Assembly (NCBI RefSeq): GCF_002159555.1
Contig: NZ_NFIV01000006.1
Coordinates: 124,001-188,000 of the forward strand
Direction: 5' to 3'
Length of the DNA: 64,000 bases
Source of the DNA: Muribaculum sp. An289
GTDB taxonomy: Bacteria; Bacteroidota; Bacteroidia; Bacteroidales; UBA932
Shown: positions 3,235 through 51,073 of the stretch, piece by piece
Position numbering within the stretch: position 1 is the first letter of the stretch
How the letters are laid out: each line of letters begins with the position of its first letter
Notes under the pieces: model-generated
Databases searched by the model: none
The model's input: the letters and a program-made list of their open reading frames with translations, nothing else
What the model was told of the DNA's origin: nothing
Made by a program: the position numbers and the translations under genes

Positions 3235-4233
3235 ATGGAATTTACTGCAAAAGAGATAGCTGAATATTTGAAAGGCGACATAAGCGGCGACCCGAATGTG
3301 AAAGTGAGCGGATTCGCCCGCATAGAGGCAGGCAAGAAAGGTACGTTGTGTTTTTTCGCAAATCCGAAATACGAGCATTTCCTATACGGCAACAAGGCCG
3401 ATATCATGATTATAAACAGGGATTACGAGTTGAAGCAGCCTTTGGATATGACCGTAATCCGCGTGGACAATGCGTACAGCGCAATAGCCTCACTGCTGGA
3501 ATATGTGTCTGCTAAAAAGAAGAAATACCGCAGGCACCGCGGCTGGTTCGTAAGACGTTTTTTTTCCACGAAAATAGGAAAACGTGTTTCGCTCGGGGAT
3601 TTTTCGTACATAGGCCGCCGTTCTTCGATTGGGGATTTCTCGATAATTTATCCCCAAGTATATATAGGTGAGGACGTGACCATAGGAAAACACTGCATAA
3701 TTTATTCCGGTGTCAGGATTTATCCCGGTACTGTCATCGGCGACAATTGCATCATACATGCGAATGTGGTTCTCGGCAGCGACGGCTTCGGCTATTCTCA
3801 TGAAGAGAACGGGACCTATAAAAAAATTGAGCATACGGGCAATCTGGTAATCGAGGACGATGTCGAAATCGGAGCCAATACCACGGTGGACCGCTCGACC
3901 CTGGGTTCTACGATTATCCATAAAGGTGTGAAAATCGACAATCTTTGCCAGGTGGCGCACAATGTCGAAGTGGGAGCCAATACCGTAATGTGCGCGATGA
4001 GCGCCATCGCCGGTTCTTCGACGGTAGGCGAACGTTGCGTGCTCGGCGGCCAGTCGGGCATATCGGGACACATTTCCATTGCCAACGGAACCAAGGTAGG
4101 AGGCCAGGCAGGGGTCATTACGGCTGTGAAAAAAGAGGATCAGGCTCTGCTCGGAACACCGGCCATAGATTTCCATCAATATTACCGTGCTTACGCTTTA
4201 TTCAGAAAAAGTGCAGAAAAACAAAAAAAATGA
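3235..4233 (+). CDS. lpxD: UDP-3-O-acylglucosamine N-acyltransferase LpxD
   Basis: A 332-residue acyltransferase that adds the N-linked 3-hydroxyacyl chain from acyl-ACP to UDP-3-O-acyl-glucosamine, the third step of lipid A synthesis at the cytoplasmic side of the inner membrane. The N-terminal uridine-binding domain (about 1-100) is followed by a left-handed beta helix of hexapeptide repeats (about 105-310). The signature GSDGFGY is at 181-187 and the AHN motif with the presumed catalytic His at 242. A C-terminal helix ends in Lys-rich residues. The ATG at 3235 is preferred over an in-frame TTG at 3181 because the protein then starts like other LpxDs and the promoter fits upstream. First gene of lpxD-lpxC-lpxA. 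Confidence 0.97.
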
Positions 4234-6029: not shown

Positions 6030-7031
6030 ATGCACCGGGTAGGGCTGTTGTCCACGGCATATCTTCCGCCTGTAAGTTATTTTACCGTAATGGCGAAATA
6101 CGGGGCAGTGTCGATAGAAGCCTATGAAAATTTTCAGAAACAGTCTTATCGTACAAGGGCCCGCATAGCCTCCTCTTCGGGTACGGAATACATTTCCGTC
6201 CCCATATTGAAGGGTGAAGGCCATAAAAGGCCCATATCGGAGATAGAAATAGATTATAAGCGCGATTGGGTGTTGTCGCACAAACGGGCCTTGATGTCCT
6301 GTTACGGTTCAGCACCTTTTTATATATACTATAAGGATGATATTTTTTCCGTCCTCGACAGCCGTCCACGGTTTCTACTCGATTTGAATACCAGCCTTAC
6401 CCGTGTCCTTGCCGGACTTCTCGGCATAAGGTGCGAGATCCGTTTTACGGACAGTTACGTCGCCCCTGCCGATGTTGCTTCTGGTGTCGTTCCCGGTGTC
6501 GTTTCTGCTGTCGTTCCTGGTGTCGTTTCTGCTGCCGTTCCTGGTGTCGTTTCTGCTGCCGTTCCCGGTGTCGTTTCTGCTGCCGCTCCCGCTTCTGCTT
6601 CTTCCGGTGTCGTTCATGGTGTCGTTCCCGCTTCTGCTTCTTCCGGTGTCGTTCATGCTGCCGCTGCTTCCGATGCTGTTGTCGCTTCTGCTTCTTCCGA
6701 TGCTGGTGCTTTTCCCAATACTGGTGTTTCTGCCAATGTTGGTGCTTCTTCCGATGCTAACGATCTTCTTCATACTGACACTGCTTTTAATGCTGGCGCT
6801 ACTTTGCAGGACAGCACTTCTCTTCATGACGACACTGTTCTCCAAGACGATGGCCGGGCTTCAATTGATTTTCGTTATTGCATACATCCGAAACGGCCTC
6901 TTCCTACGGGATTTTTAAAAGGAGGTGAATACTATCAGGTTTTTGCCGACAGGCTGGGCTTCATTCCGGATTTGTCTGCCGTAGACCTGCTTTTCAACGA
7001 AGGCCCCAACGCCATCTCATTCCTGAAGTAA
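6030..7031 (+). CDS. WbqC-like family protein with a large repetitive insert
   Basis: A 333-residue protein. Its first 145 residues (start MHRVGLLSTAYLPPVSYF, with YENFQKQSYRTRA and a later SYGSAPFY-like stretch) and last 50 residues (FRYCIHPKRPLP ... NEGPNAISFLK) match the WbqC-like family, whose members are usually about 200 residues and lie near cell-surface polysaccharide genes; their biochemical role is not settled. Between them lies about 130 residues of Ala/Val/Ser/Gly/Pro repeats (about 146-278) that the family normally lacks. It follows lpxA by 5 bp and is probably the last gene of that operon. The reading frame is kept open through the insert, so the protein could be made, but whether it folds is unknown. 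Confidence 0.8.
   Translation: MHRVGLLSTAYLPPVSYFTVMAKYGAVSIEAYENFQKQSYRTRARIASSSGTEYISVPILKGEGHKRPISEIEIDYKRDWVLSHKRALMSCYGSAPFYIYYKDDIFSVLDSRPRFLLDLNTSLTRVLAGLLGIRCEIRFTDSYVAPADVASGVVPGVVSAVVPGVVSAAVPGVVSAAVPGVVSAAAPASASSGVVHGVVPASASSGVVHAAAASDAVVASASSDAGAFPNTGVSANVGASSDANDLLHTDTAFNAGATLQDSTSLHDDTVLQDDGRASIDFRYCIHPKRPLPTGFLKGGEYYQVFADRLGFIPDLSAVDLLFNEGPNAISFLK
6492..6665 (+). repeat. In-frame minisatellite inside the WbqC-like gene
   Basis: Four successive 24-bp units encode PGVVSA followed by two Ala/Val residues (6492-6587). Two 39-bp units follow, each encoding PASASSGVVH plus three residues (6588-6665). Degenerate Ser/Ala/Asp-rich repeats continue to about 6860. All units are multiples of 3, so copy-number change would keep the reading frame. 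Confidence 0.9.
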
Positions 7032-47994: not shown

Positions 47995-48068
47995 TCCTCA
48001 TTAGCTCAGTTGGTTAGAGCATCTGACTGTTAATCAGAGGGTCCTAGGTTCAAGTCCTAGATGAGGAG
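47995..48068 (+). tRNA. tRNA-Asn (GTT)
   Basis: A 74-nt cloverleaf. Acceptor TCCTCAT/ATGAGGA, anticodon loop CTGTTAA with GTT, T stem CTAGG/CCTAG, discriminator G as expected for Asn. CCA is not encoded. Confidence 0.95.
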
Positions 48069-48070
48069 CA

Positions 48071-48105
48071 GAAATCCGCTCGTAAGAGCGGATTTCTTTT
48101 TTTTT
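48071..48105 (+). terminator. Terminator after tRNA-Asn
   Basis: GAAATCCGCTC (48071-48081) pairs perfectly with GAGCGGATTTC (48086-48096), with a GTAA loop, followed by a T-run. Confidence 0.9.
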
Positions 48106-48180
48106 GTTTCTTGCAAAATAGGTTTATTTTTTTTAATTTTACAACCGATAACTTCTATAAACAACTTAAAACTCGATGCA

Positions 48181-50237
48181 ATGAAACATTTCTTTTATTT
48201 TACGGCAGCCGCCGTCGCTTTTCTGGTAATCAACGGATGTGAGCAAATCCCCCCCCCCCCAAGCCTGTTTTTGAGCCTGTATCTTCTGAGGATATGACAG
48301 TTCCGTGCTCCGGCGGTATTTTTTCAGTGGCATACGAAATCGTCAATCCATCGGAAAACGGGGATGTATTGGCGCATACCGAAGCTGATTGGATCACGGA
48401 TTTCGATTATTCAGTTTTCGGCGAGGTGAAATTCCTGGTTGAAGAGAATATCGGGAAAGACAAGCGCGAAAGCGTGATATTTCTGGAATATGAATATTCA
48501 GAAGGCGAATCTTTGGAGTTCGGTGTCAAAATTGTTCAGGAGGCGGCAGGGGATCTTCCTCCGGAGCCGGACGACGATCCTTTTACGATAGAAGTTTATG
48601 AAATAGGTGCGACTTCCGCCAAAGTGAAAACCACGCCGCTCGACATGGAGCTTACCTATACGTCCCAGTTGATGACCAAGGCTGATTTCGAATATCAGGT
48701 AGGAGATGTGGATAATGCGCAGCAGTGGCTGAGGGAGACCTTCGAATACATGGCGTACAGTTATGGTATGACTTTCTATGATTTTATGAAGGCTTTCCTG
48801 ATAAGCGGTGTCGAGGATTATCCTTATACGGGATTGCTTCCCGAAACCGAACATATCGTTTTTGCCGTGGGGCTTGACTATGAGTGTAATTTCACTACCG
48901 AATTTTATATAGGTGCGAATTTTTTTACGATGGAGTTTACCCTTACCGACTTGTCGTTTACCATGGATGTAGTTCCGGAAGCAAGGACCGCTTTCGTTGT
49001 TACGACTCCTTCCGACATGACCGCCAATTATGTAGTCTTTCCGATTATGCAGTCCGACTGTGCAGGATTGTCAGACGAGGATATCATCCAAAGTATAATC
49101 GATGCATATTCCATGTTCATAGAGGTATATGTGGTTTATGGGATAAACGAGAGGAATTTTACCGGATTAGAGCCTGACACGGATTATTATGCATTGGCTT
49201 TCGGTTTTGAGCCGAGTGCTTTCATGTATACTTCGAATCTCCACAAAGAACCTTTCACTACATTGAATACGGGTGACCCGACCAAGGTTACTTTCGACAT
49301 ATCTGCCGACAGGATAAGTGCTTATTTTGCAGATATTACCGTAAAACCTTCGGACGCGTCGGTGTTTTATCTTTACAATGTCATCCAGAAATCTCTTTAT
49401 GAGTCTTATGGCGGAGACAAGGACGCTCTGCAACGGTATTCGGATGAGCTCATAGATGAATTATACCAAGATTATGTGGGCTATGGATATACTTGGGAAG
49501 AAATTGTGGAACAATTTTATGTTGCAGGCGAAACGACTTTTACTGCTGAATGCCTTGTCCCGGAAACGGAATATTATGTTTGGGCGGCCACATGTGATGA
49601 ACAGGGTGTATTCTTATCGGAACCGGCTCTCGTACCGTTTGTTACAGAGCAACATGTACCTTCCGACGCGTATGTTCCAGGCATAGTGGACGAGTATTTC
49701 GATGGTTATGAAATAGCCGAATACAATCCTCTTTATGGCGGATATCAGGGCATGGTTGTCGTTCCGATCGTATATGAGCCTAACGATTCGGCTGTAGATT
49801 GGTGCGTGTCCGTTTTCCAAGGAGACGTAGTCGCCATGTATGGCGAAGATGATGTGTTCTTATCCACATTGGAAAGCTCGCAGTGGGGGCAGAACATTGT
49901 GGGCATACCTACTTTCGCATTAATGTACGATCAGCCGTATACTGTAACTACTATTGCAGTGGATGAGGATGGAAATTACGGTGAGATGTATCATCAGGTA
50001 TACACAATGACAAAAGATGGAGTGGCTCCGCCTGAAAATGTTGATTATTATTTTAATCAGTTCATGCCGTATTCAGGATATCCGGAGGAGTTAAAACGCG
50101 TGATGCCGAAGATAATGTGCCATAAGGAGGATAAGCCTGACTGCGTAGCGGATACGTCCGAATCTTTGGATATGGGAGAATTGCCTCCGATCGGCAAAGA
50201 TTCGTCTGGAAAGATAATTAAAGCTGATTTGTTTTGA
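48181..50237 (+). CDS. Large modular surface lipoprotein split by a 12-C tract (phase-variable candidate)
   Basis: The start ATG gives a lipoprotein signal ending INGCEQI, then 12 C (48249-48260) that shift the frame and lead to TGA at 48295. Two bases fewer or one more (10 or 13 C) would join it to the long frame through KPVFEPVSSEDMTVPCSGG to 50237, giving 685 residues. The joined protein has a BACON-like domain at about 35-120. Repeated modules follow that resemble the protein at 31457 (LLPETEHIVFAVG, LEPDTDYYALAFG, LVPETEYYVWAATC). The product is likely surface-exposed. The tract is OFF in this sequence, unless it reflects an assembly or sequencing error. Confidence 0.75.
48249..48260 (+). 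repeat. Poly-C tract (12 C) in a lipoprotein N-terminus
   Basis: Twelve C directly after the codons of the lipoprotein signal. The length puts the downstream 1.9 kb out of frame with the start codon. Confidence 0.9.
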
Positions 50238-50290: not shown

Positions 50291-51073
50291 ATGGACGTAC
50301 TTCTTTTATCCCGTATGATTAAGGAGCTTGTGCTCGAAAACGACAGGGTTTCGCTTCCGGGACTCGGAGTTTTCGTCTGTGAGTATGTCCCTGCTTCATT
50401 TTCCGATAAGGGTTTTGTCATAAACCCTCCTTACAAGAGGATATATTTCAGGAGCAAGAAGGAAGATGACGGGCTTCTCGTTTCCTTTTATGCAGGGAAG
50501 AACGGGGTGGATAAGGACGTTGCGGAAAAATTTGTCGAGGATGCGGTTTCGGACATAAGGCAGGAGCTTGAGTCGAAACGTTCCGTGGAATTTCCCGAGT
50601 TGGGGAAGTTGCGCTCGACAAAGGAAAATACTCTGTTTTTCGTGGCCGACCAGGATTTGGATATTTACCCCGACGGTTTCGGGTTGGTTTCGGTATCGTT
50701 GAAGAGCAGCGAGAGCGAAGACATTCCGGAATCTGTTCCGGTAACACCAGCGGTGCCAGTAGCATCGGCGACACCAGTGACTCCGGAGGTTCCGGCGGCA
50801 CCAGCGGTGCCAGTAGCCCCAGCGGCTCCAGCAGTATCGGAGACCGTGGAGACCCCAGTAACAGCGGCGACCCCGGAAGCCCCAGCGATTCCGGAAAGCG
50901 GGAAAAAGAAGGCCCCTGCATGGAAATGGGGGCTGGCGATTTCGGGTATAGTAGTTCTTGCGTTGGTGTTGTTCGCGATATCGGCCAGAATCTTTCCCGA
51001 CAGTGGCTTTATAAACGGGCTTCTGTACTCGGAAGAGGAAATCGAGATATTGAAATGGGCGGGACTTTTATGA
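50291..51073 (+). CDS. HU-CCDC81-like membrane protein with Pro/Ala/Val linker
   Basis: 260 residues. The first 130 residues (RVSLPGLGVFVCEYVPASF, NPPYKRIYFRSKKEDDG, RSVEFPELGKL) match the paired bacterial HU-CCDC81 domains of Bacteroidota, proposed to bind DNA or polymers in a division-related membrane protein. A 60-residue linker of P-V-A-T repeats follows (about 146-205), then one membrane segment (about 213-231) and a short tail. It lies upstream of and convergent to metG. In the family, proteins with this layout sit near the cell-wall or division apparatus; the role here is unproven. Confidence 0.7.
   Translation: MDVLLLSRMIKELVLENDRVSLPGLGVFVCEYVPASFSDKGFVINPPYKRIYFRSKKEDDGLLVSFYAGKNGVDKDVAEKFVEDAVSDIRQELESKRSVEFPELGKLRSTKENTLFFVADQDLDIYPDGFGLVSVSLKSSESEDIPESVPVTPAVPVASATPVTPEVPAAPAVPVAPAAPAVSETVETPVTAATPEAPAIPESGKKKAPAWKWGLAISGIVVLALVLFAISARIFPDSGFINGLLYSEEEIEILKWAGLL

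Follow-up and report, generated by a model that had tools for sequence, protein, structure and literature searches.

A 12-C tract interrupts a lipoprotein gene just behind its signal peptide: a likely slipped-strand contingency locus in a gut Bacteroidales genome

Results

Organization of the lipoprotein gene and its surroundings

The window, i.e., the whole stretch of 64,000 nucleotides analyzed here, contains a lipoprotein gene whose frame is broken at a run of C near its start. The following features were found at this site:

47995..48069, + strand, tRNA-Asn upstream of the lipoprotein gene (ARAGORN)
48070..48105, + strand, intrinsic terminator of the tRNA-Asn (12-bp stem and T tail; fold -20.2 kcal/mol, z -4.55)
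48111..48141, + strand, candidate Bacteroidota promoter, TTG-N20-TAATTTTA (pattern scan)
48181..48240, + strand, SPII-type lipoprotein signal peptide, ending in the translation at the lipobox Cys (VINGC), with the same layout in paralogues
48181..48297, + strand, frame as sequenced, with 12 C: 38 codons, then TGA at 48295-48297, giving a truncated product
48249..48260, + strand, 12-C tract in a Pro-rich linker, a few codons past the lipobox Cys; the proposed slippage switch
48261..50237, + strand, downstream frame of 658 intact codons with a BACON-like start and internal repeats
50291..51073, + strand, HU-CCDC81 gene, the syntenic downstream neighbor

The gene starts with the ATG at 48181 (N-terminal translation, MKHFFYFTAAAVAFLVINGCEQIPPPP), and its lipobox Cys codon occupies 48238-48240. 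The signal was read directly off the translation, without a signal-peptide predictor, and it met the criterion for an SPII lipoprotein, i.e., a signal peptide with a lipobox Cys. The C run was exactly 12 long, and no stop interrupted the downstream frame before the TGA at 50235-50237, which leaves 658 codons after the tract or 647 when counted from an internal ATG at 48294. An earlier note on this region had claimed that the start codon and lipoprotein signal run into 12 C and stop at 48295, that an intact frame of about 640 residues follows, and that 10 or 13 C would join the two; the first two claims held, and the arithmetic of the third was correct. The locus also fulfilled two of the criteria for a phase-variable gene based on a simple sequence repeat: a G/C homopolymer of at least 8 in the coding region, and a tract length that sets the full-length frame (658 codons) versus an early stop (38 codons), the paralogues being joined.

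The start of the downstream body matched BACON (PF13004) with an E value of 0.003 and 17.9 bits, below the Pfam gathering cut-off of 25; it is thus BACON-like only and not a BACON-domain member by this score. The protein belongs to an expanded lipoprotein-like family of the genus, with 19-30 matching stretches per genome, and many of the related proteins have internal repeats. The paralogues carry the SPII signal, the lipobox Cys, an acidic Pro/Glu-rich linker, and the BACON-like body start, all in one frame, indicating that the two frames of the window gene are parts of one coding sequence. In the nearest paralogue, L043, the linker reads CEEPEPAPVPVFGAVSSDDINAPAEGGTF versus CEQIPPPP..KPVFEPVSSEDMTVPCSGGIF in the window gene (the pair was also given as CEEPEPAPVPVFGAVSSDD versus CEQIPPPP..KPVFEPVSSED). 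The product had previously been described as a large modular surface lipoprotein. This held in part, as the lipobox, the BACON-like start, and the repeat-bearing relatives support it; surface exposure was not shown. When 84,980 species genomes were scanned with the window protein, no relative was retrieved, nor did a PDB sequence search return one; a single-sequence structure model, built with no alignment, was useless (pLDDT 34.5), so no fold search was based on it.

The terminator at 48070..48105 is predicted, from sequence alone, to isolate the lipoprotein gene from the tRNA-Asn. The candidate promoter, placed 39 nt 5' of the ATG with one mismatch to TAnnTTTG, is putative, its function being inferred from the pattern. 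Because of this strong terminator and the candidate promoter, the gene is probably transcribed on its own, although this too is a sequence-based inference. The gene was absent at the syntenic site of Ca. M. pullicola, where the HU-CCDC81 gene lies directly 3' of the tRNA-Asn, and no HU-CCDC81 match was found in genome G002. The earlier note had proposed a comparison of C number with relatives, but the one sister species in which the locus is syntenic has no such gene. The lipoprotein gene is thus accessory, with no orthologue whose tract could be set beside its own.

Two other repeats were observed in the window: a 27-bp minisatellite at 50745-50832, in the linker of HU-CCDC81, where the match to the G001 orthologue breaks, and a 24-bp tandem repeat at 6479-6591 (4.7 copies, 94% identical), inside a predicted ORF at 6030-7031.

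A 12-C run is not expected from base composition

In shuffled windows, a 10-C pattern gave a mean of 0.41 overlapping matches, and a first-order model predicted, per 64 kb, ~0.17 C/G runs of at least 10 and ~0.013 of at least 12. CCC is a minor Pro codon in the window (11%), and C runs drop steeply with length (11 of five, one of six, and one of seven) before the single run of 12. The 12-C run is, therefore, unexpected from base composition.

The genome that contains the window, hereafter G000, is a 2.32 Mb draft of 36 contigs with 99.8% completeness. An MBOAT scan gave Ca. Merdivivens pullistercoris and Ca. Merdivivens pullicola as genus mates, with Coprenecus more distant; one more Merdivivens species, faecigallinarum, is listed in the NCBI taxonomy. 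G000 is placed in one genus with pullistercoris and pullicola and is thus a further species of Ca. Merdivivens, a genus of uncultured gut Bacteroidales. Exact G/C runs across this genome numbered 8, 7, 6, 9, 0, and 2 for lengths 7 to 12, respectively; the 24 runs of at least 8 formed a flat length tail, without geometric decay. Poly-G/C tracts are generally under-represented across 99 prokaryote genomes (PMC2831843). For G000, the first-order model predicted ~86 runs of 8 versus 24 seen, but with counts dropping steeply as length increases. Since the model overpredicts these runs, the signal resides in the shape of the tail and the placement of the tracts, not in the raw count.

Other genes of the same genome are broken at G/C runs

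When the frames around every G000 tract were analyzed, six genes proved to be broken precisely at the run while their downstream frame was open. Besides the window gene, these were:

L093, lipoprotein, G10
L099, Acyl_transf_3 protein (acyltransferase), split across G10
L100, secreted SLT transglycosylase, G10
L102, DUF3575/OmpA protein, G12 just 5' of a hydrophobic signal segment
L104, MBOAT O-acyltransferase, G9

A hexapeptide transferase (L099) and a TPR lipoprotein (L124) were probable further tract breaks, and another lipoprotein (L097) had a G9 in its signal peptide that was in frame. Among the G000 stretches analyzed, runs of at least 9 were associated with 7 broken and 4 intact frames, versus 6 broken and 101 intact for runs of 5-7 (Fisher test, p = 9e-6). 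These calls were made by an automatic rule, and the background of short-run breaks is overstated if anything, because the listed cases include many gene boundaries.

These data bear on the main rival explanation, already named as such in the earlier note, that a sequencing or assembly error hides a true tract that is in frame, the gene being simply expressed. In its favor, homopolymers of 12 are error-prone, G000 is a draft, and a single assembly in which 7 of the 11 long coding tracts are out of frame could itself point to error. Against it, the window ORFs that contain some 30 runs of 6-8 were intact, arguing against general homopolymer indels, and A/T runs of 5-8 were called broken in only 54 of 651 cases, gene boundaries included. 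Moreover, lengths of 9, 10, and 12 coexist in G000, which excludes a truncation ceiling below 12, and even with a misread length, so long a C run at this site would be expected to mutate at a high rate all the same. We consider this explanation unlikely, but it cannot be excluded for the 12-C tract without reads.

Weighing against the switch reading, tracts in the sister species were mostly elsewhere than those of G000, suggesting that most are lineage-specific. The SLT orthologues examined had an interrupted run and no tract, and the DUF3575 relatives (26-35%) showed none where the site could be checked, although they are too distant for orthologue calls. The SLT transglycosylase gene of G000 has two tracts, a C9 in the leader and a C10 in the coding region (3968-3977 and 4279-4287 of L100).

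The MBOAT gene differs in tract length and frame state between species

For the MBOAT gene, a difference in tract length between genomes was seen at the same site, a comparison for which the window gene had no orthologue. G000 carries an out-of-frame G9 and Ca. M. pullistercoris an in-frame G8 at the identical position, and this is the sole length difference in the aligned coding region of this pair. The same site reads GGTCGGGAGTG in Ca. M. pullicola and GGGG in Coprenecus, both in frame and without a tract. No excess of nonsynonymous change was found in the G000 lineage (N/S 61/87 vs 50/84, p = 0.54), and the pairwise dN/dS was ~0.06, an approximate value since synonymous sites are near saturation. 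These values indicate that the broken G000 copy is still under purifying selection, and they are compatible with silencing that can be reversed, or with a slip of very recent date, and not with an old pseudogene.

The comparison is relevant to two further rivals. One is non-adaptive, with a hypermutable tract having merely broken the lipoprotein gene, which would be a recent pseudogene. The gene is indeed accessory, missing from the Ca. M. pullicola locus, and the tract-free SLT orthologues indicate that a tract can expand in a single lineage without having to be preserved. However, 658 downstream codons have no stop, the same defect recurs in several envelope genes, and the broken MBOAT gene shows no relaxed selection; we thus regard the pseudogene reading as very unlikely. 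In the other, RNA polymerase or the ribosome would slip on the 12-C run, yielding a constant minority of full-length protein with the DNA unchanged. Polymerase slippage is possible at long homopolymers, as with poly-A in Buchnera (PMC2831843), but this would leave unexplained the MBOAT length difference and the differing lengths between loci, and we hold it to be the least probable of the rivals.

Tracts in a related genus

Two genomes of another genus of the same family, g23, contained 17 (G024) and 16 (G066) tracts of at least 9. Many of the breaks in this genus fall in genes for nutrient uptake and sensing: tracts of G9-11 interrupt SusC receptors and two-component sensors, as well as a GH31 gene and lipoproteins, often at the signal peptide. 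The affected loci were:

TonB/SusC-type receptors (CarboxypepD_reg and Plug domains): L281, L287, L298, L300-L302, L309
Sensors (Reg_prop, Y_Y_Y, HisKA or AraC domains): L296, L297, L304
GH31 gene: L295
Lipoproteins: L277, L280

As in the window gene, the tract lies within the signal peptide or immediately after it in L277, L280, L287, L300, L302, and L309 (the latter from G096). Other tracts were in frame, namely those in L272, L275, L279, L284, L288, and L292. In G066 (L292-L307), 15 of 16 G/C tracts were exactly 9 long; this near-uniformity may reflect either biology or the handling of homopolymers by the assembly, and individual OFF states there lack read support. A comparison of SusC tracts within g23 was not informative, as the relatives, at 44-45%, were too distant.

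Discussion

Proposed switch

Our preferred explanation, which we consider likely, is a slipped-strand contingency locus at the 12-C tract that belongs to a multi-locus homopolymer phasome and is at present OFF. Slipped-strand mispairing during replication would alter the number of C in the Pro-coding linker just behind the lipobox. With lengths in one residue class modulo three, reading would continue from the signal peptide into the 658-codon body (ON); with all others it would stop early (OFF), the assembly with 12 C representing the OFF state. The tract, its two frames, and the intact downstream frame are observed directly, and together with the broken frame they can be explained without an invertible promoter. 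The likeliest function would be the stochastic ON/OFF display of an envelope lipoprotein. High-rate reversible length change in one population, expression and surface display in ON cells, and an adaptive benefit are all inferred; length mixtures within one population were not shown, in the absence of reads or a second strain of the same species, and this limits the switch reading.

The earlier proposal of phase variation, made for a single gene, was supported beyond it by the other envelope genes of G000, MBOAT, and g23. The multi-locus pattern and one change in length and frame state between species (MBOAT) are shown. In the proposed model, the window gene would belong to a group of contingency loci, based on G/C tracts, that the species shares with its family. 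The group would comprise envelope lipoproteins, O-acyltransferases, and outer-membrane proteins; SusC receptors and two-component sensors would join it in another genus. A bolder reading is that a family-wide G/C-homopolymer phasome of many loci, often at signal peptides, operates in uncultured gut Bacteroidales; the present evidence leaves this as open to being wrong as right. No more settled is the suggestion that such a phasome switches glycan-foraging and envelope genes (SusC, two-component sensors, lipoproteins, O-acyltransferases) by slippage, as Bacteroides does by DNA inversion. Calls of gene absence or pseudogenes in genomes with many tract-broken genes may capture a momentary OFF state.

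Comparison with known systems

G/C runs this long are established sites of slipped-strand mispairing in Neisseria, Campylobacter, and Helicobacter (PMC3786947, PMC6321876, PMC8355987). Like the locus described here, their poly-G/C loci (e.g., HmbR/HpuAB, PMC3786947) have coding tracts of ~8-12 with out-of-frame stops, and there are many per genome, with surface and transport targets (phasome, PMC6321876, PMC8355987). By contrast, here the organism is a Bacteroidales gut commensal, the targets are BACON-like lipoproteins and MBOAT, with SusC and two-component sensors added by the related genus, and switching is only inferred. Among gut commensals, the G9 of Amuc_1413 in Akkermansia muciniphila (PMC13055324) and a pilus poly-G in Bifidobacterium breve (cited there) likewise frameshift a surface-related gene, but these belong to other phyla and one or two loci were described (PMC13055324), compared with many here. 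Within the Bacteroidales, Bacteroides fragilis also turns surface components ON and OFF, with invertible promoters and the Mpi recombinase (cited in PMC11868660); there, DNA inversion acts on transcription, whereas slippage at the window gene would act on the reading frame. A frameshift in a C run, with slippage proposed, has also been reported for an acetyltransferase of B. fragilis 638R (PMC3090145), but this run has only 4 C, it is a single strain difference, and there is no long tract. The open-access literature searched, whose coverage was incomplete, yielded no account of such a phasome based on homopolymers in Bacteroidales, and this is absence of evidence. The mechanism is known, best from pathogens, and the lineage and the surface/glycan targets appear to be new.

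Intergenic tracts

For intergenic G(n)TA tracts, a role in a promoter spacer adjoining TAnnTTTG was considered and rejected, as it gave a good fit for one of them only. Intergenic tracts were also dropped from the switch claim, because many of those in the sister species sit in dispersed intergenic repeats. Intergenic poly-C runs of 10, 9, and 9 occur at L095:4067-4076 (G000), L110:2983-2991 (G001), and L150:3052-3060 (G002), near a conserved stretch of 86-90% DNA identity that is followed in G000 by a MacB-like permease gene; this could be a shared regulatory tract. A G9 at L101:4040-4048 (G000) and a G8 at L143:3014-3021 (G002) both lie shortly 5' of the start of an OmpR-type response regulator, for which they might conceivably serve as a switch. 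The Merdivivens poly-G tracts within dispersed intergenic repeats included L127, L129, L139, L141, L146, and L151 of G002 and L096 of G000, and one class of these repeats carries TATTTTGCGG or TAATTTTGCGG behind the G run.
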